From Limnochorda sp. L945t (GTDB lineage Bacteria > Bacillota > Limnochordia > Limnochordales > Geochordaceae), in contig NZ_CP141615.1 of the NCBI RefSeq assembly GCF_035593305.1, forward strand, positions 620,001 through 684,000: a DNA stretch of 64,000 nt, given 5' to 3'. The position numbers and the translations under genes are program-made. The notes below the pieces were generated by a model. That model made no database searches and was not told the origin of the DNA. It saw nothing but the letters and a program-made list of their open reading frames with translations. Of this stretch, positions 1-33,962 are shown one piece after another (positions within the stretch are counted from its first letter, which is position 1; every line of letters starts with the position of its first letter).

Positions 1-1620
1 GCTGGAGGCGGTACCAACTCGTACCGCGAGATGGAGGATACGGACGTCCTGCTCCTCTGGGGTTCCAATGCCCGGGAGACGCACCCGGTCATGTTCTTGC
101 ACATGCTCCAAGGGGTGCGCCGGGGAACGCGCCTGTTCGTCATCGACCCGAGGAGGACGGCCAGCGTCGCGTACGCCCACCGGTGGCTGCCCGTCCGGGT
201 GGGCGCCGACGTCGCGCTGGCCAACGCCATGGGCCGGGTCATCATCGAAGAGGACCTGGCCCACCGCGAGTTCATCGAGGCGGCGACCGACGGCTTCGAG
301 GCGTACCGCCGCTCGGTCGAGCCGTACACCCTGGAGCGGGCGGAGGCGATCACGGGCGTGCCGGCGGCGCTCATCCGGGAGACGGCCATCGCCTACGCCA
401 CCGCGCCGCGGGCGATGATCGCCTGGACGCTCGGCATCACCGAGCACCACAACGCCACCGACAACGTCTTCGCCCTCATCGACCTGGCGCTTCTCACCGG
501 CCACGTCGGGCGCTACGGCTCCGGCCTCAACCCCTTACGCGGCCAGAACAACGTGCAGGGCGGAGGCGACATGGGCGCCCTGCCCAACCGCCTGCCGGGG
601 TTTCAGGATCTCACGGATCCCGCCGTGCGGCAGCGCTTCGAGCAGGCGTGGGGCTGCACCATCCCGCCGGAGCCCGGGCTGCACCAGACGGCCATGCTGG
701 AGGCCATGGAAAAAGGGGTCATCCGGGCCATGTACGTGGTCGGCGAAAACCCGGTGCGCTCCGAGGCCAACGGCGAGCGGGTGAGGCGGCTGTTCGAAGA
801 GCTGGACTTTCTCGTCGTGCAGGACATCTTCCTGACGGCCACCGGGGAGCTGGCCGACGTGGTGCTGCCGGCGGCGGTCGGATGGTGCGAGACGGAAGGG
901 ACCGTCACCTCGAGCGAACGCCGCGTCCGGCGGGTGCGAAAGGCGCTCGATCCTCCCGGCGAGGCCCGCGACGACATCGAGATCCTGCAGATGGTGGCCC
1001 GGCGGATGGGCTTCGACTGGCACTACGCCGGCGCCGAGGATGTCTGGAACGAACTGCGCAGCCTCTCGCCCATCCACCGCGGCATGAGCTACCGGCGGCT
1101 GGAGGCGATGAACGGCCTGCAGTGGCCGTGTCCCTCGGAAGACCACCCGGGGGAGACGTTCCTGCACGCTCGCCTCTGGAAACGCCCGGTCGAGGGGCCC
1201 CGGGCGCGGTTCATGCCGGTCGAGTGGGCGCCGCCGGTCGAACGACCCGACGCCGGCTACCCGTTCCTGCTCACCACGGGGCGGAGGCTCGAACAGTTCA
1301 ATACAGGCGTGCAGACGGCCCGGTATGCCGTTCCGTGGGGCCATGAGGAGCGGCTGTTGATCCATCCCGACGACGCGGCCCGCCTCGGCGTGAGCGACGG
1401 GCAGTGGGTGCGGGTCTGTTCCCGCAGGGGCGAGGTGAACGTGCGGGCGGCGCTGAGCCGGGTGGTGCAGCCCGGCCTCGTCTTCCTGACGTTGCACTCG
1501 CCCGAACAGGTGGCTACCAACCGCTTGACCATCGACGCCACGGACCCGAAGGCGGGGACCGCGGAGTTCAAGGCGACGGCGGTCTGCATCGAGCCCGTGC
1601 GGGAGGAGGTGGGGGCGTGA
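1..1620 (+). CDS. fdhA: Formate dehydrogenase catalytic (molybdopterin) subunit, 5' partial
   Basis: This frame is open from base 1, so the gene begins before the window. The 539 visible residues cover most of the molybdopterin oxidoreductase domain and the C-terminal molybdopterin dinucleotide-binding domain. Family-typical stretches are TNSYREMEDTD, WGSNARETHP, GQNNVQGGGDMGALPN, GENPVRSEAN, ADVVLPAAVGWCETEGTVTSSERR and, near the C-terminus, LLTTGRRLEQFNTG. The enzyme oxidises formate to CO2, or the reverse, at a Mo or W bis-dinucleotide centre. In this family the Sec/Cys active-site residue lies some 15-25 residues before the TNS(Y/I)-x-E motif, just upstream of base 1, so selenocysteine use cannot be seen. 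The stop overlaps the GTG of the next gene (GTGA), indicating coupling to the diaphorase. The dedicated selenium genes nearby suggest, but do not prove, a Sec-containing enzyme. Confidence 0.93.
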   Translation, partial: AGGGTNSYREMEDTDVLLLWGSNARETHPVMFLHMLQGVRRGTRLFVIDPRRTASVAYAHRWLPVRVGADVALANAMGRVIIEEDLAHREFIEAATDGFEAYRRSVEPYTLERAEAITGVPAALIRETAIAYATAPRAMIAWTLGITEHHNATDNVFALIDLALLTGHVGRYGSGLNPLRGQNNVQGGGDMGALPNRLPGFQDLTDPAVRQRFEQAWGCTIPPEPGLHQTAMLEAMEKGVIRAMYVVGENPVRSEANGERVRRLFEELDFLVVQDIFLTATGELADVVLPAAVGWCETEGTVTSSERRVRRVRKALDPPGEARDDIEILQMVARRMGFDWHYAGAEDVWNELRSLSPIHRGMSYRRLEAMNGLQWPCPSEDHPGETFLHARLWKRPVEGPRARFMPVEWAPPVERPDAGYPFLLTTGRRLEQFNTGVQTARYAVPWGHEERLLIHPDDAARLGVSDGQWVRVCSRRGEVNVRAALSRVVQPGLVFLTLHSPEQVATNRLTIDATDPKAGTAEFKATAVCIEPVREEVGA

Positions 1621-3563
1621 GCCAGGGCCCGGTCGCGCCGGCGCCGGGGAGAGGAGTAGACCTCTCCCGGCTGGAGCGGATGCCCGACCCGGAGCCGGAT
1701 GAGGCCGTGGCGCTCCAGGAGGTGTGGCGCGAGGTGGCTCCGGAGAGCCGCAGGGGCCGCCGCGATTTGCTGCTGCCGGCGCTGCAGGCGCTCCAGCGCG
1801 CCAGGGGGTGGGTCTCGTATCCGGCCCTGGCGGCGGTGTGCCGGGAGCTCGGCGTGCCGCTTGCGGACGCCTACGGCGTTGCTGCCTTTTACGCGCTGCT
1901 TCGCACCGAGCCTGGCCCGCGGCACATCGTCCACCTGTGCGACGACGTGGCGTGCATGCGCCGGGGGGCGGACCGGCTGGCCGCCCGCTTGCGCGAGCGC
2001 CTGGGCCCGCCGCTGCACGGTCCGGAGCATGGGGGGCTTCGCGGCCTGCCGGGCTCGGCCCGCCTGTCCGGCGCGCACGGCGACGGGGCCTCGCCGGGCG
2101 CCGCCGCTTCCGTCGGGTGGGCTTTTTCGCCGTGCCTGGGCCAGTGTGACCGGGCGCCTGCCGCGCTGGCCGGCGACGAGGTGTGGGGGGAGTTGACCCC
2201 GGAGGGGCTGGAGGCAGGCCTGCGAGACCTGGAGGCGGCCGGGCATCCGGAAGGCGCAAGAGGTGAGCCGGACGGTGCGGCCGCCGAGGCGCCGCTGCTC
2301 GCCGGTGGCTCGCCCGGCGTCCCCGGCCCGCGCGCCGGCTGCATGGGAGAGGCCACGCCCCTGCTGCTCGAGCGGGTGCTCTCGGGCGGTGCGACCACCC
2401 TCGACGCGTATCTCGCCCGGGGCGGGTATCAGGCGTTACGACGCGCCCGTGAGCTGGGTCCCGGGGGGGCCATGGCCGAGGTCGAAAGGGCCCGCCTCCT
2501 GGGGCGAGGCGGCGCTGCCTTCCCGTCCTCCCGTAAGTGGGCGGCCGTGGCCCGGGAGCCGGGGCCCCGGTACGTGGTCTGCAACGCGGACGAAAGCGAA
2601 CCCGGCACGTTCAAGGATCGGGTGCTGCTCGAGCTCGACCCGTTCGCCGTGCTCGAGGGCATGACCATCGCCGCCTTTGCCACGGGGGCCGAACGGGGCT
2701 GGATCTATGTGCGCGGCGAGTACCCCGATGCGTACCGCTCCATACGGCGGGCCGTCGAGGAGGCGAGGGCACGAGGGTACCTCGGGCACCACCTGCTGGG
2801 AGCCGACTGGAGCTTCGACGTGGAGGTGCGCAGGGGAGCCGGAGCCTACGTGTGCGGGGAAGAGACGGCTCTCTTCAACTCCATCGAAGGCCTGCGCGGG
2901 GAGCCGAGGGCACGGCCGCCCTTCCCGACCCAGCGGGGGCTCTTCGGCCGGCCCACCGTCATCCACAACGTGGAGACACTGGCCTCCGTCGTGCCCATCC
3001 TGCTGCGGGGCGGGAAGTGGTACGGCGCGCTCGGCACGGCCCGCTCGGCCGGCACCAAGCTGGTCTCGGTGAGCGGGGACGTGGCGGTGCCGGGGCTGTA
3101 CGAGGTGCCCTTCGGCACCCCCATCCGGGCCATCCTGGAGGAGCTGGCCGGCGGTGCGCCCGGAGGCCGGCGCATCCAGGCCGTCCTGTGCGGAGGCGCG
3201 GCCGGCACGTTCCTTTTCCCCGAGGAGCTCGACACGCCCCTGGCCTTCGAGACCCTGCAGGCCATCGGCGGCACCGTAGGCTCGGGAGCTCTGGTGGTGC
3301 TGGACGAGACGGCCGATCTGTGGGAGGTGGCCGAGCGCATCGCCCGCTTCTTCAAAGAAGAGTCGTGCGGCCAGTGCGTACCCTGCCGGGTGGGCACCCG
3401 CCGCCAGTGGGAACTGGTCCGGGCCATCCGCCGGCAGGGCGGCCGGGTGGACGGTGCCCTGCGGGCCCTCTTCGACGACCTGGCCCGGGTGATGCGGGAC
3501 AGCTCGATCTGCGGGCTCGGGCAGCTTGCCCCCAACGCGCTGGCCAGCCTCGTGCGGAGGTGA
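1617..3563 (+). CDS. NuoE-NuoF fusion, diaphorase subunit of formate dehydrogenase
   Basis: This 648-residue protein joins two subunits that are usually separate. The first ~190 residues are a NuoE/HoxE-type thioredoxin-like [2Fe-2S] domain with C108-x4-C113 and C173-x3-C177. An alanine/proline-rich linker follows, then a NuoF/HoxF domain with the FMN/NAD-binding stretch LGRGGAAFPSSRKW..VVCNADESEPGTFKDR and the Rossmann-like GAGAYVCGEETAL region. The C-terminal [4Fe-4S] motif is C584-G-Q-C587-V-P-C590 with C632. It should pass electrons between NAD(P)H and the formate dehydrogenase. The GTG start overlaps the preceding stop by four bases. The frame has no internal stop, so this is a true fusion rather than adjacent genes. 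Whether the acceptor is NAD+ or NADP+, and whether it bifurcates with ferredoxin, cannot be read from sequence. Confidence 0.93.
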   Translation: MSQGPVAPAPGRGVDLSRLERMPDPEPDEAVALQEVWREVAPESRRGRRDLLLPALQALQRARGWVSYPALAAVCRELGVPLADAYGVAAFYALLRTEPGPRHIVHLCDDVACMRRGADRLAARLRERLGPPLHGPEHGGLRGLPGSARLSGAHGDGASPGAAASVGWAFSPCLGQCDRAPAALAGDEVWGELTPEGLEAGLRDLEAAGHPEGARGEPDGAAAEAPLLAGGSPGVPGPRAGCMGEATPLLLERVLSGGATTLDAYLARGGYQALRRARELGPGGAMAEVERARLLGRGGAAFPSSRKWAAVAREPGPRYVVCNADESEPGTFKDRVLLELDPFAVLEGMTIAAFATGAERGWIYVRGEYPDAYRSIRRAVEEARARGYLGHHLLGADWSFDVEVRRGAGAYVCGEETALFNSIEGLRGEPRARPPFPTQRGLFGRPTVIHNVETLASVVPILLRGGKWYGALGTARSAGTKLVSVSGDVAVPGLYEVPFGTPIRAILEELAGGAPGGRRIQAVLCGGAAGTFLFPEELDTPLAFETLQAIGGTVGSGALVVLDETADLWEVAERIARFFKEESCGQCVPCRVGTRRQWELVRAIRRQGGRVDGALRALFDDLARVMRDSSICGLGQLAPNALASLVRR

Positions 3564-3570
3564 GGGAGCC

Positions 3571-4458
3571 TTGCGCCTGACCATCGACGGCCACCCGGTA
3601 GAGGGCCCACCCGGCAGTACCATCCTGGAGGCGGCCCGCTCGGTGGGCGTCCCCATCCCCACCGTTTGCTACCACGAGACCCTGGAGCCCATCGGGGCGT
3701 GCCGGGTCTGCGTAGTGGAAGTGGAGGGGGCACGGACGCTGGTCCCGGCGTGCCAGCGGCGGGTGGAGGAGGGGATGGTCGTCCGCACCGATACAGAGCG
3801 GGTGCGGGCCAACCGCCGGATGGTCGTGGAGCTCCTCGAGAGCTCGGCCGACACGCGCCTCGCCCCGGAGATCGGGCGCCTCGCCTCCGAGCTCGGCGCC
3901 GACCCTGGGCGATGGGCTTCGCTGCAGCACGAAAAGCCGCTGCCGGCCCGCGGCCCCAAGCTGGACAACGAGCTCTACGTCCGAGAACCGGACCGCTGTA
4001 TCCTCTGCTATCGCTGCGTCAAAGCCTGCGGAGAGCAGGTGCAAAACACCTTTGCCATCGCCGTGGCGGGCCGCGGCTACGAGGCGCGGATCGACCCGGG
4101 ATTCGACCTGCCCCTGCCGGACTCGGCCTGCGTCTTTTGCGGCAACTGCGTCGCCGTCTGCCCGACGGAGGCCCTGACCTTTCGCACCCAGTGGGAGATG
4201 CGGCGAGACGGGGCGTGGGACGAGTCCCGCCAGCGTACCGTCACCACGGTCTGCCCCTATTGCGGGGTGGGCTGCCAGCTACAGCTCACCGTCCAGGACA
4301 ACCGCATCGTGAAGGTCACCGCCCCGGTGGACGACCCGACCACCCGCGGCTACCTGTGCATCAAGGGGCGCTTCGGGTGGCAGTACGTGCACGCGGGGCT
4401 GCAAACTGCTCCGGAGGCCCTTCCGAAGGCGCAGACCGATGCCCGGCGCACGGCGTGA
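3571..4458 (+). CDS. NuoG/FdhA-type N-terminal iron-sulfur module ending in the molybdopterin Fe4S4 domain
   Basis: This 295-residue protein starts at TTG 3571 with GGAGG 10 bases upstream; no closer ATG or GTG is in frame. In order it carries a plant-type [2Fe-2S] ferredoxin domain (C33, GACRVC, VPAC), the NuoG His-Cys [4Fe-4S] region, a two-cluster ferredoxin domain (CILCYRCVKAC and CVFCGNCVAVCP), and then the opening Fe4S4 domain of a molybdopterin oxidoreductase (CPYCGVGC...GYLCIKGRFGWQYVH). The protein stops where a full formate dehydrogenase would continue into its catalytic domain. It follows the NuoE-NuoF fusion by 7 bases, so it probably wires the diaphorase to the catalytic subunit, much as HoxU does in hydrogenases. 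It may be one half of a split FdhA, a duplicated N-terminus, or a remnant. The first gene's N-terminus is needed to decide. Confidence 0.85.
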   Translation: MRLTIDGHPVEGPPGSTILEAARSVGVPIPTVCYHETLEPIGACRVCVVEVEGARTLVPACQRRVEEGMVVRTDTERVRANRRMVVELLESSADTRLAPEIGRLASELGADPGRWASLQHEKPLPARGPKLDNELYVREPDRCILCYRCVKACGEQVQNTFAIAVAGRGYEARIDPGFDLPLPDSACVFCGNCVAVCPTEALTFRTQWEMRRDGAWDESRQRTVTTVCPYCGVGCQLQLTVQDNRIVKVTAPVDDPTTRGYLCIKGRFGWQYVHAGLQTAPEALPKAQTDARRTA

Positions 4459-4466
4459 GCAGCCGG

Positions 4467-4567
4467 TGGCGGAAGGACGTGGGAATCGAACCCACCGAGA
4501 GACGCGACACGCGCCCCTCCCGAAGGGTTTGAAGCCCTCGGGGCCCACCAGGAGCCCATGTCCCTCC
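4467..4567 (-). tRNA. selC: tRNA-Sec (UCA), selenocysteine tRNA
   Basis: Read on the minus strand this is a selenocysteine tRNA. The acceptor arm is 8 bp (GGAGGGAC with GUCCUUCC, one G-U pair), followed by a G discriminator and an encoded CCA. The D arm has 6 bp (GGGCUC with GGGCCC) and a short loop. The anticodon loop CUUCAAA gives a UCA anticodon that reads UGA. The variable arm has about 10 paired bases (GAGGGGCGCG with CGCGUCUCUC), and the T arm is GUGGG-UUCGAUU-CCCAC. An 8+5 acceptor/T stack, 6-bp D stem and long variable arm are diagnostic for bacterial tRNA-Sec. It sits between the iron-sulfur module and selA but is transcribed against them. No convincing promoter is visible in the ~125 bases between its 5' end and the selA start. 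Confidence 0.95.
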
Positions 4568-4692
4568 GCGCATCAGCTTAGCGGATATCAGGAGGAGTTA
4601 GCAAACGCTTTACGAAGGCGTACCTACCCCGCGCGCACCGGCCCGCCGCCCTCACGACGGTGCCGGGCGGCGCGGGGTGGGGAGGCCGGGCC

Positions 4693-6111
4693 GTGGAGGC
4701 GGAGGATGCGCGCAGGGCGCTGCCGTCGGTCGACGAGGCCTTGCACCAGGCTGCCGTCCGGGAAACGACGAGCCGGTTGCCGAGGCCCCTGGCGGTGCGG
4801 GTGGTCCGGGAGGCCATCGACGCCGTGCGGGAGCGCCTGGAGGACGGCGGGGCCGGTGAGCCGGTGGAAGGCCTGGTGCAGGCGGAGGTGCGGCGCAGGG
4901 CCGAGGAGCTGGCGGCGCGCCGCCTGCAACCGGTCATCAACGCGACCGGCGTGGTGATCCACACCAACCTGGGCCGCGCCCCGTTGCCGCAGGCAGCCGT
5001 CCGGGCCATCGCGGAGGTGGCCCAGGGTTACTCCAACCTGGAGTGGGACATCCTCTCCGGCCGGCGAGGACGGCGCGACACTCGTATCGAGCCCCTGTTG
5101 CAGGCGCTCACCGGCGCAGAGGCCGGGCTCGTGGTCAACAACAATGCGGCCGCGGTGCTCCTGGTGCTCGCCGCGGTCGCCCGGGGGCGGGAGGTCATCG
5201 TCTCCCGGGGCGAGCTCGTCGAGATCGGCGACTCCTTTCGCATCCCCGAGATCATCGCCCACAGCGGTTGTGTGCTCAAAGAGGTGGGCACCACCAACCG
5301 CACCCGGCCCGATGACTATGAAAAGGCCATAGGCCCCCAGACCGGCGCCATCCTCAAGGCTCACCCGAGCAACTACCGCATCGTGGGCTTCACGGAGTCG
5401 GTAGAGGCCCGCACGCTCGCCGAGATGGCCCACCGGCGGGGGCTGTTGCTCCTGGTCGACCTGGGTTCGGGGGCCATGGTGCCGAGCGAGGCGTGGGGGG
5501 CCGGTTCGCACGAGCCGACCGCCCGGGAGATGGTGGAAGCCGGGGCGGATGCGGTCATGTTCAGCGGCGACAAGCTCCTGGGAGGGCCGCAGGCGGGCAT
5601 CGTGGCAGGGCGGCGAGACGTGGTGCAAATGGCCCGGCGCCACCCGCTCTTCAGAGCCGTGCGGGTCGGGAAGCTCACCCTGGCCGCGCTGGCCGCCGTC
5701 CTCGACCTCTACCTGGAGGGCCGGGTGACGGACGTGCCGGTCTGGGAGATGCTCCACCGCGCGCAGGACCAGCTCCTGGAGCGGGCGCACCGCCTGGCCG
5801 AGGCCATCCGGCAGCGCCTGGCGGGAGAGCTGGAGCAGGCGGTAACGGTGCGGGCCGTCGCGATGGAGGCGGAGGTGGGGGGCGGATCCCTTCCCGGGGC
5901 GGCGCTCCCGTCGGCAGGGGTCGAGATCGCTGCGGCGGGCGACGAGGGTCTTGCCGAGTGCCTGGCCCGGGCGCTGCGCCTGGGCAGGCCCCCGGTGGTG
6001 GGGAGGATCGAGCGGGAGCGGCTGGTGCTCGATCTGCGCACGGTATGGCCGGAGCAGGACGAGGCGGTCGCCGAGGCGGCCGCGCGGGCGGTGCGAGCGT
6101 GCCGGTCCTAG
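4693..6111 (+). CDS. selA: L-seryl-tRNA(Sec) selenium transferase
   Basis: SelA converts Ser-tRNA-Sec to Sec-tRNA-Sec using selenophosphate, in a PLP-dependent reaction on a large homo-oligomer. The 472-residue protein has the family-typical start RALPSVDEAL, NATGVVIHTNLGRAPL, the SGRRGRRD stretch and the PLP-lysine segment MFSGDKLLGGPQAG, with Lys294 as the likely Schiff-base residue. I chose GTG 4693 because GGAGG ends 7 bases before it and the product then matches normal SelA length; GTG 4660 in the same frame would add 11 residues. The gene overlaps selB by 13 bases and lies next to tRNA-Sec, forming a compact selenocysteine operon. Confidence 0.96.
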   Translation: MEAEDARRALPSVDEALHQAAVRETTSRLPRPLAVRVVREAIDAVRERLEDGGAGEPVEGLVQAEVRRRAEELAARRLQPVINATGVVIHTNLGRAPLPQAAVRAIAEVAQGYSNLEWDILSGRRGRRDTRIEPLLQALTGAEAGLVVNNNAAAVLLVLAAVARGREVIVSRGELVEIGDSFRIPEIIAHSGCVLKEVGTTNRTRPDDYEKAIGPQTGAILKAHPSNYRIVGFTESVEARTLAEMAHRRGLLLLVDLGSGAMVPSEAWGAGSHEPTAREMVEAGADAVMFSGDKLLGGPQAGIVAGRRDVVQMARRHPLFRAVRVGKLTLAALAAVLDLYLEGRVTDVPVWEMLHRAQDQLLERAHRLAEAIRQRLAGELEQAVTVRAVAMEAEVGGGSLPGAALPSAGVEIAAAGDEGLAECLARALRLGRPPVVGRIERERLVLDLRTVWPEQDEAVAEAAARAVRACRS

Positions 6112-8036
6112 CGACGGCGGGACACGTGGATCACGGCAAGAGCACCCTCATCCGGGCGCTGACCGGCACCGACCCCGACCGGCTGCCCGAGGAGAAGGCC
6201 CGGGGCATGACCATCGACCTGGGGTTCGCCTCCCTGGTGTTGCCGTCGGGGCGCCAGGTGGGGATCGTGGACGTCCCGGGCCACCAGCGGTTCATCCACA
6301 ACATGCTGGCGGGCCTGGGGGGCATCGACGCGGCGATGCTGGTGGTCGACCTTACCGAGGGCTGGATGCCCCAGACCGAGGAGCACGCCGAGATCCTCCG
6401 CCTGCTCCAGATCCCCCTGGCGGTGGTGGTCTTCACCAAGGCCGACCTGGTCGACGCCGAGTGGACCGAGATGGTGGCACAGGAGGTCCGGCGACACCTC
6501 GAGGAGCACCACTTCCACGGCGTACCGGCGCTGGCCGTCTCTGCCCCTGCCGGCCGGGGCCTCGAGGAGCTCCGGGCGCTGCTCGACCGCAGGCTTCAGG
6601 AGCTGGCGTCCGCCGAAGACCGTGGGTGGCCGCGGCTGTGGATCGATCGGGTCATCAAGATGAGAGGCACCGGCGTGGTGGTCACCGGGACGCTGGCCGG
6701 CGGCAGCCTCGTGCCCGGGCAGGAGGTGGGGATCCAGCCGGGAGGCCTGCGCGGGCGCATCCGGGGCCTGCAGAGCCACAACCGGCCGCTGTCGGCAGCC
6801 GCCCCGGGCGCCCGGGTGGCCGTCAACCTCCTGGGGGTCTCCTACGAACAGCTCAGCCGGGGCCAGGCCGTCGTGCACCCCGAAGACGAGGCCTTGAGCA
6901 AGACGCCGGTCGTGGAGTTGCGGGTGGCCCGCCATGCCGGCGCCGTCCGGACGGGGATGCGGCTTGCCTGCTTCGCCGGTTCGGCCGAGGTCATGGCCCG
7001 GGTACGGCTGCTGGGCGACGCGGGGGAGCTGGGACCGGCGGAGACGGGGCTCGCCCAGCTCTTGCTGGCCCACCCGCTTCCCCTGCGCTGGAGGGACCGC
7101 TTGATCTTGCGGGATCCGGGCCGGCAGGTGACGGCCGCGGGGGGCGTGGTCGCCGACCCTTCGGCCGATCCTCTGCGGGGCCGCAGGCTGGTGCGCCAGG
7201 TGGCGTCCCCCTCACGGGCATCCTGCCGGACCCTCCACGGCGCCTCCCGGCCGCCGGCCGACCCGGGGGCCATGCAGGCGCTTGCCTCGGGAGACGTGGA
7301 CGGCGCGGTCGAAGCCCTGGCGGCTACGTACGGGCCTCTGACCGCCGGGGAATTGGCCCGCCGTCTCCACCTCGCCCAGACGCCCGTCGACGAGGCGCTG
7401 GCCCGGCTGTCGGGCTCGGGACGGCTCGTGGCCCGGGGCCCCTTTTACCTCACCCCGGCGATGTGGGAGCGCGTGACGGGCGCCGTACATCGCACGCTGG
7501 GCGCCTATCATCGGGCGAACCCTCTTTCGCCGGGGCTGCCCCGCCAGACCCTGCTCTCCACGCTGGCCCTGGAGCCCAGGTTCTTCGACGTCGTGCTCGA
7601 AACCCTGGTGCGCCAGGGCGCGGTGGTGTGGGACAACCCCACCGTCCGGCTGCCGTCTTTCCAGCCCAGGCTTTCGCCCGAAGACGAAAAGGAGCGCCAC
7701 CGTCTGCTGGAACTGCTGGAGCGGCGAGGCTTCACGCCGCCTACCCTCGACGAGCTCACCCGTGACCAAGGCTTCTCGCTGCAGCTCATCCTGCTCCTCG
7801 TAGCCCAGGGCGAACTGGTGCGGGTGCACCAGGATCTGGTCTTCACCGCCGCCCGGATACGGCAACTGATGGAGCACGTCCGGGCCGTCGCCCGGCGCTC
7901 CGGTGGGCTGGTCGAGCCGGCCGCGGTGCGGGACGCGCTGGGTTCGACCCGGCGCTTCGTCATCCCGCTGCTCGAATACCTCGACCGGATAGGGTTCACC
8001 AGGAGAGCGGGGGACCGGCGGCAAATCGTGGAGTGA
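6099..8036 (+). CDS. selB: Selenocysteine-specific translation elongation factor SelB
   Basis: SelB is the GTPase that delivers Sec-tRNA-Sec to ribosomes stalled at a UGA followed by a SECIS hairpin. The 645-residue protein opens with the G1 motif GHVDHGKST, followed by the switch I region ARGMTIDLGF, the DVPGHQRF G3 motif and FTKADL as G4. EF-Tu-like domains II-III follow, then C-terminal winged-helix domains of about 200 residues that bind SECIS RNA. The GTG start at 6099 lies inside the end of selA, so the two genes are translationally coupled. SelD follows after 35 bases behind its own strong ribosome binding site. A full SelB, rather than a plain EF-Tu, confirms that UGA recoding is active here. 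Confidence 0.96.
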   Translation: MPVLATAGHVDHGKSTLIRALTGTDPDRLPEEKARGMTIDLGFASLVLPSGRQVGIVDVPGHQRFIHNMLAGLGGIDAAMLVVDLTEGWMPQTEEHAEILRLLQIPLAVVVFTKADLVDAEWTEMVAQEVRRHLEEHHFHGVPALAVSAPAGRGLEELRALLDRRLQELASAEDRGWPRLWIDRVIKMRGTGVVVTGTLAGGSLVPGQEVGIQPGGLRGRIRGLQSHNRPLSAAAPGARVAVNLLGVSYEQLSRGQAVVHPEDEALSKTPVVELRVARHAGAVRTGMRLACFAGSAEVMARVRLLGDAGELGPAETGLAQLLLAHPLPLRWRDRLILRDPGRQVTAAGGVVADPSADPLRGRRLVRQVASPSRASCRTLHGASRPPADPGAMQALASGDVDGAVEALAATYGPLTAGELARRLHLAQTPVDEALARLSGSGRLVARGPFYLTPAMWERVTGAVHRTLGAYHRANPLSPGLPRQTLLSTLALEPRFFDVVLETLVRQGAVVWDNPTVRLPSFQPRLSPEDEKERHRLLELLERRGFTPPTLDELTRDQGFSLQLILLLVAQGELVRVHQDLVFTAARIRQLMEHVRAVARRSGGLVEPAAVRDALGSTRRFVIPLLEYLDRIGFTRRAGDRRQIVE

Positions 8037-8071
8037 GGGCATGCCCGGGGCGGAAAGGAGGGTGGGCGGCC

Positions 8072-9145
8072 ATGGCGGAGCAACCCGACCATCGGGAGGA
8101 GCGCTTTCGGCTCACGTCGTTGAGCTCGAAGGCGGGTTGAGCATGCAAGATGGGTCCGGCGGACCTGTTCAGCATGCTGGCCGGCTTGAAGTTGCCGGAG
8201 CGAGGGCCTGAAGTGCTCTCGGGGCTCGAGGAGGCCGAGGACGCAGGCGTCTTCGTGGTCGGGGATGGGCTCGCGCTCGTGCAGAGCGTCGACTTCATCA
8301 CGCCCATCGTCGACGACCCGGAGACCTTCGGCGCCATCGCAGCGGCCAACGCCATGAGCGACGTGCTCCTCATGGGCGCTCGCCCGGTGGCCGCGCTCGG
8401 CATCGCCGGCTTTCCCACGGGCAAGGCAGAGCCTTCGGTGCTGGGGCGGATCCTCCAGGGAGCCATCGACAAGCTCCACGAGGCCGGCGCGCACCTGCTC
8501 GGCGGGCACACGGTGGAGGACCGGGAGGTCAAGTTCGGCCTGGCGGTGACCGGCGTGGTCGATCCGGCGCGCCTCATCCGGCGCGACGGGGCCCGTCCCG
8601 GCGACCTCCTGGTGCTCACCAAGCCGGTGGGCGGCGGCATCGTATCGACGGCGCTCAAGGCCGGCGTGGTCGATGAGGGCGATGCCCGGGAGATGTCCAG
8701 GGTGATGCTGGCGCTCAACGACTACGCGGACGAGATGCGGGCGACCGGGGTGCGGGCGGTCACCGACGTGACCGGCTTTGGACTGGTGGGCCACTCGCTC
8801 GAGCTGGCCCGATCGAGCCGGGTGGGCGTCCGCCTGTACTGGGGCAAGGTGCCGCTGTTGCCCCGGGCGAGGGAGCTGGCCGCCACGGGCAAGTACGTCC
8901 CGGGAGGCAGCCGCCACAACCAGATGTGGGCGCTCGAGGGCCGGGCGACTTTCGACGAGGTGCTGGACGAGGTCGACCGGACCCTGGCCTGCGACGCGAT
9001 GACGTCGGGTGGCCTCCTCATGGCGGTTCCGCGCCAGCGGGCCGAGGAACTGGTGGAGCGGGTCAAGCGACGGGGTGCCCCCGCACCCGGTATCGTGGGC
9101 GAGGTGGTGGCCGAGCACCCGGGCCAGGTGCACGTGCTCCCCTGA
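8072..9145 (+). CDS. selD: Selenide, water dikinase (selenophosphate synthetase), itself a selenoprotein with an in-frame UGA
   Basis: SelD makes selenophosphate from selenide and ATP, the selenium donor used by SelA. The reading frame starts at ATG 8072 behind AAAGGAGGG and contains an in-frame UGA at 8138-8140 (codon 23). It sits in the context SSKAG-U-ACKMGPADL, where the family has its catalytic Cys or Sec. With the UGA read as Sec the protein is 357 residues, the normal SelD length. Later motifs are intact: SVDFITPIVDDP, AAANAMSDVLLMGA, LLGGHTVED and TDVTGFGLVGH. A conventional gene caller would start at ATG 8150 and lose the ATP-binding N-terminus and the active site. A hairpin directly after the UGA fits a bacterial SECIS element. 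Self-insertion would make selenophosphate supply depend on Sec decoding. Confidence 0.94.
8138..8177 (+). promoter_or_regulatory. UGA-Sec codon and SECIS-like hairpin in selD
   Basis: Directly after the UGA (8138-8140), GCATGC at 8141-8146 can pair with GCATGC at 8172-8177. Inside this, GGGTCC (8152-8157) pairs with GGACCT (8161-8166), leaving a three-base GGC apical loop. The layout of a lower stem starting at the UGA and an apical stem-loop within ~40 bases is the standard bacterial SECIS plan read by SelB. The loop differs from the E. coli fdhF loop, as expected for a lineage-specific SelB. Confidence 0.8.
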
Positions 9146-33587: not shown

Positions 33588-33962
33588 GGCCCTGAGCCGT
33601 TATACTGGGAGACGCAGGTACCGCCCCGGGGTCTGTGGCTGAAAGTCGATGCCAGCCGCGGGCGAAGCGACCCACGTAAGGCGCCGCCGCCGGCCGGCAC
33701 GAGGAGGCCGGCGGCGGCGACCGAGCATGGCGCGGCTTAGCTGTAAGTCCTGCCCGCCGGCCCCTTTGGGCGGGCCAGGCGGAGAGGGAGCGAAAGCCCG
33801 GAGATGGGATCCTCGAGACGGCCCGGGACTGGGTGGGCTGAGCTCCCCGGCAGGCGGGTGTGGGGGCAAAGGCCAGGTCAGCCCGGTGGCGGGCCTGCCC
33901 GGCGGAGCTTCGGGTTACGGTATGGAGTGTCAGGTCGCGCACGGAAGGAGCGGTGGGGCACC
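33588..33962 (+). other. 375-base intergenic region with strong hairpins, possible structured leader
   Basis: No supported gene lies here. The main feature is a 13-bp perfect stem, GCCGCCGCCGGCC with GGCCGGCGGCGGC, around 33684-33719 with a ten-base loop. A second hairpin with CCCGCC/GGCGGG arms lies around 33752-33775. TATACT at 33601-33606 could be a -10 box but lacks a matching -35. The length and structure suit a 5' leader for the amino acid importer downstream, but I could not match it to a known riboswitch class. The one open frame through it has extreme Arg/Gly bias and no ribosome binding site. Confidence 0.45.

Follow-up and report, generated by a model that had tools for sequence, protein, structure and literature searches.

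The window, i.e. the whole 64,000-nucleotide stretch of DNA that was analysed, carries selA, selB, selC and selD together between positions 4471 and 9145. The tRNA-Sec gene selC (4471..4567, anticodon TCA; Rfam RF01852 at 68.2 bits, also called by ARAGORN) lies on the minus strand just before selA, and selA, selB and selD follow in that order on the plus strand with ends that overlap or nearly abut. selA (4660..6111, with an approximate 5' end) matches the L-seryl-tRNA(Sec) selenium transferase model TIGR00474 at 544 bits. selB (6099..8036), encoding the selenocysteine (Sec)-specific elongation factor, matches TIGR00475 at 326.6 bits and has SelB winged-helix domains; its most likely start is GTG 6099, which overlaps selA. 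The last of the four genes, selD (8072..9145), would encode a selenide, water dikinase (selenophosphate synthetase) of 357 aa with Sec as residue 23.

The selD frame from ATG 8072 to the TGA ending at 9145 contains exactly one internal stop, the TGA at 8138-8140 (plus strand, codon 23), and the translation around it reads ...LSSKAG-U-ACKMGP..., in which UACK conforms to the motif UxxK. When this UGA is read as an amino acid the frame gives a full-length SelD, as the sequence-only reading had claimed: the product scores 328.4 bits with the SelD equivalog TIGR00476 against a cut-off of 125 bits, protein residues 13-323 cover positions 1-310 of the 311 in the model, and the AIRS and AIRS_C domains are both present. 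The solved structures nearest to the product are 2yye and 3u0o, which we take to be the SelD proteins of Aquifex and E. coli, respectively. In the alignment with the 3u0o chain, the UGA position falls on the Cys of GCGCK and Lys26 falls on the Lys of that motif.

SelD was searched for in 61 genomes (the window's own and 60 relatives) and in the genome_contigs collection, and a set of 39 SelD sequences was drawn from both searches, with relatives that span several phyla. The alignment to Sec- and Cys-type SelD, run as had been proposed, bears out the assignment of codon 23 to the catalytic Cys/Sec position, since the column holds Sec (UGA) in 32 sequences and Cys in 7, with no other residue among the 39. 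Lys at +3 from the Sec or Cys is found in 39/39. Apart from the window's own gene, 31 of 38 homologues have the UGA at the same place, and so does the closest named relative, Limnochordaceae bacterium Bu05 (a MAG), which is 97.7% identical in DNA sequence across this region and in which the UGA and the SECIS (see below) are unchanged. The in-frame UGA aligns with Cys in the 7 Cys-type homologues, two of them from the same class. These Cys-type proteins occupy two separate places in the tree. In one of the two they are nested within Sec-type sequences from this same class, a placement that fits the Sec-to-Cys trend published for SelD (PMC1794560). The class relatives with such a nested Cys-type SelD are L025 and L027; the pair that closed the loop of the former SECIS is broken in each of them, which is what a decaying remnant would be expected to show. 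The window SelD itself sits on a long branch, with about 50% identity to its best relatives outside its own species. Over the ten codons 5' of the UGA, comparison with order and class relatives gave 125 synonymous and 60 non-synonymous codon differences; since the changes before the UGA are mostly synonymous, translation runs into the UGA.

Under the standard code the longest ORF runs from ATG 8150 to 9145 (plus strand, 331 aa), and this is the mis-call that had been predicted for ordinary annotation. Since this ORF is without residues 1-26, both Sec23 and Lys26 are lost and with them the active site, as had also been foreseen. Furthermore, since the ORF still scores as SelD (303 bits on TIGR00476), the mis-call would be silent. 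The significance of the locus is therefore mainly a matter of annotation, since a truncated call that passes the SelD cut-off would leave the databases holding a SelD without an active site. Misannotation of selenoproteins has been reported as usual (PMC4561486). It might be supposed from the presence and SelD score of the 331-aa ORF that the UGA is a true stop and that a working SelD is made from ATG 8150, or that the UGA arose by nonsense mutation or by an error in sequencing. Such a protein would, however, have neither the Sec/Cys position nor the invariant Lys, and its start is not conserved, since just 4 of the 31 UGA-type sequences have ATG at 8150; the relatives were searched for a functional downstream start and none was found. 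ATG 8150 also has no good Shine-Dalgarno sequence in front of it and sits within the stem of the SECIS hairpin, and the UGA is shared with Bu05 and the other UGA-type homologues. We therefore give this explanation next to no chance of being correct.

Directly after the UGA lies a predicted bacterial SECIS hairpin (8140..8178, plus strand), which is based on folding, a synonymous-codon control and conservation of the apical stem. Its lower stem is formed by 8140-8146 and 8172-8178, its upper stem by 8149-8157 and 8161-8169, and its apical loop is GGC (8158-8160). The 61 nt from 8130 to 8190 have a minimum free energy of -33.7 kcal/mol (z -4.8) and no shuffle was as good, while the 45 nt from the UGA fold at -23.2 against a mean of -13.9 in synonymous recodings (p 0.003). 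The energy of the whole hairpin beat synonymous recodings at p < 0.02 in only 3 of 20 UGA-type class sequences (the window, L014 and L023), so most of the signal lies in the apical stem. As the 45-nt folding energy was weak in most relatives, it was replaced by a count of apical pairs compared with the synonymous-codon control. In the 31 UGA-type sequences that were counted, 129 of the 155 possible pairs at the five innermost positions are formed, where synonymous codon redraws lead one to expect 95.5 +/- 4.3; fully paired apical stems number 13, with 1.7 expected. The structure also tops every slid version of itself in both percentage paired and covariation score. On this comparative evidence selD contains a putative SECIS, the apical stem of which is kept far beyond codon constraint. 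Its likeness to known bSECIS elements lies in the hairpin directly following the UGA, the G in the first loop positions, the spacing of 17 nt between UGA and apical loop, and the adjacent selB, whose product would be the reader. Because the UGA/Cys column is conserved over 39 sequences and the hairpin after the UGA is conserved as well, chance is excluded as the origin of the in-frame UGA, as judged by sequence comparison.

The pair 8155-8163 varies across the relatives in a compensatory manner (U-A, A-U, G-C and G-U), and the encoded residue changes with it between Asp, Val and Ala. In terms of the protein, the middle codon base of residue 31 pairs with the wobble base of Gly28 and the two change together, U-A being found with Asp, A-U with Val and G-C with Ala. 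It is conceivable, though somewhat doubtful, that SelD residue 31 (Asp/Val/Ala) is dictated by the SECIS and not by the enzyme, relatedness not being fully separated from covariation in this comparison. If true, this would mean that the protein sequence is steered by an RNA signal within its own gene, and this protein-RNA coupling is the only aspect of the selD finding itself that is mildly novel.

We conclude that selD 8072-9145 almost certainly encodes a Sec-type selenophosphate synthetase, the UGA of which would be read as Sec23 via the SECIS. In the proposed mechanism, SelB with Sec-tRNA-Sec would recognise the hairpin right after UGA 8138-8140, so that the ribosome would add Sec at residue 23 and not terminate. 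The position of the catalytic nucleophile, which is Cys in other SelD, would be taken by Sec23, acting with Lys26. SelD would then produce selenophosphate from selenide and ATP, and SelA would use the selenophosphate to make Sec-tRNA-Sec. Since SelA needs selenophosphate for this step, the making of SelD would depend on the compound that SelD itself produces. This dependence of Sec-type SelD on its own product is a long-known bootstrapping loop, and one that is testable in such an operon. A full-length protein would also be obtained by readthrough alone, i.e. if near-cognate suppression placed an ordinary amino acid and not Sec at the UGA. This is very improbable, since the genome also uses UGA as an ordinary stop, as at the ends of both selB and selD, and complete selA, selB and selC genes adjoin selD. 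Moreover, the conservation of the apical hairpin beyond codon constraint and the alternation of Sec and Cys at the site, which marks Sec insertion, both argue for insertion of Sec.

The Sec-type SelD proteins are a textbook case of a selenoprotein family. A review includes SelD, with the motif UxxK, among the selenoprotein families that have been verified by experiment (PMC9312934), and Sec-type proteins constituted 19% of prokaryotic SelD in a reference survey (PMC4561486). The window SelD resembles Sec-containing SelD/SPS2 (COG0709) in its predicted catalytic Sec, the Lys three residues on, the AIR-synthase fold and the SECIS within the coding sequence; there is no difference of substance beyond the divergence of its sequence. 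The Cys-type SelD proteins 3u0o and 2yye belong to the same family and show the same active-site alignment, but in the sequences that were aligned they have Cys and not Sec at the active site, and they need no SECIS. The reading of the gene as a Sec-type SelD is right but not new, and the gene is ordinary for its kind.

The start codon of selD is less certain than the sequence-only reading had claimed. The strong ribosome binding site named in that reading is present, the Shine-Dalgarno sequence AAAGGAGG (8054..8061, plus strand, by direct reading) lying 10 nt before ATG 8072. Upstream of 8072 the selD frame stays open over 40 codons or more, and an alternative in-frame GTG start (8033..8035, plus strand) overlaps the selB stop (GTGA). 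When the selB-selD junction of Bu05 (L049) was compared with that of the window (8033-8110), a -1 and a +1 indel were found, both lying between the region of 8033 and the UGA, that cancel each other. The Bu05 frame is open from the GTG equivalent to 8033, while the GTG equivalent to 8072 is out of frame, and the frame from GTG 8033 is open in both sequences. This suggests that either Bu05 has assembly errors or selD translation starts at 8033. Initiation at GTG 8033 would be coupled to the selB stop and would add 13 residues while leaving the Sec reading unchanged, and it is the start from which the Bu05 frame stays open. We nevertheless consider it unlikely, given that 8072 has a strong Shine-Dalgarno sequence at the right distance that is retained in Bu05, that the N-termini of the homologues are short, and that indel errors are possible in the Bu05 MAG, which shows 21 alignment gaps over 9.3 kb. 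A start at ATG 8072 is preferred because of its ribosome binding site and the length of the homologues.

The genome of 3.31 Mb, in one contig, was searched for SelD, formate dehydrogenases and selU. A second complete selD elsewhere in the genome had been named as evidence against the selenoprotein reading, and none was found over the cut-off, the single match being the UGA-containing gene. The weaker matches were rejected as ThiL, HypE, PurM, an AIR-synthase paralogue and two proteins without strong family assignment; the AIR-synthase paralogue reads KAGKLPPEKL and has no catalytic Cys/Sec. There was likewise no match in the genome to selU/ybbB (selenouridine synthase), and the idea that SelD is needed here for making selenouridine was rejected.

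The relatives differ in their complement of Sec genes. One order relative, G004, has SelD twice, each gene being full-length and carrying the Sec UGA (L039 and L040, at C1:368728-369726 and C1:3420750-3421778), and two SelB over the cut-off. Four genomes of the same class (G034, G036, G044 and G047) have SelB, SelA and tRNA-Sec over the cut-offs, but none of their SelD-like proteins reaches the SelD cut-off, and the one that scores best is a paralogue lacking Cys/Sec. In G014, SelB and tRNA-Sec are present with no SelA or SelD over the cut-offs, and G040 has only SelB. These six genomes with Sec genes and without SelD could represent incomplete assemblies or orphan Sec machinery. Neither SelD nor SelB was found in G001 and G002, the two same-family genomes in the relatives set, where the best matches appear to be other family members or are under the cut-off.

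A formate dehydrogenase cluster lies upstream of the sel genes, and at the start of the window (1..1620, plus strand) it holds the catalytic part of a Sec-type formate dehydrogenase alpha subunit, which matches TIGR01591 positions 52-672 at 689 bits and has one TGA. This gene begins upstream of the window, with its UGA approximately 41 nt before window base 1, and its product is one of the proteins that the Sec machinery serves. Elsewhere in the genome, at G000:C1:602453-604354 on the minus strand, there is another gene for formate dehydrogenase alpha with a Sec UGA and hairpin. In both Sec-type formate dehydrogenase genes the hairpin loop lies 18-19 nt after the UGA, and whereas the loop of the selD SECIS is GGC, the formate dehydrogenase hairpins carry other loop sequences. 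According to a published study, Bu05 is apparently the same species as Carboxydochorda subterranea L945 (97.13% AAI), the probable cultured representative, which is reported to use formate or CO for growth, oxygen being the acceptor (PMC11456536); the source of the window is probably this organism or one very close to it. A full selenocysteine system is retained in this Limnochordales lineage. Elsewhere in the window, a raiA RNA (RF03072, 112.5 bits) is found at 33622-33891 on the plus strand.

The formate dehydrogenase catalytic subunit is split (window 1-4458; G000:C1:619728-624458). The split catalytic gene is without the N-terminal [4Fe-4S] domain, its TIGR01591 match beginning at position 52, and TIGR01591 positions 1-50 are represented by the C-terminus of a Fer2/Fer4 protein (~3568-4458) encoded by the second gene downstream, which follows one for a NuoE-NuoF fusion. 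Neither a literature search nor a review yielded a description of a split formate dehydrogenase catalytic subunit, and the split is probably a more unusual feature of this neighbourhood than selD. The same gene order and the same split are found in G004, G262 and G214, which belong to three other families.
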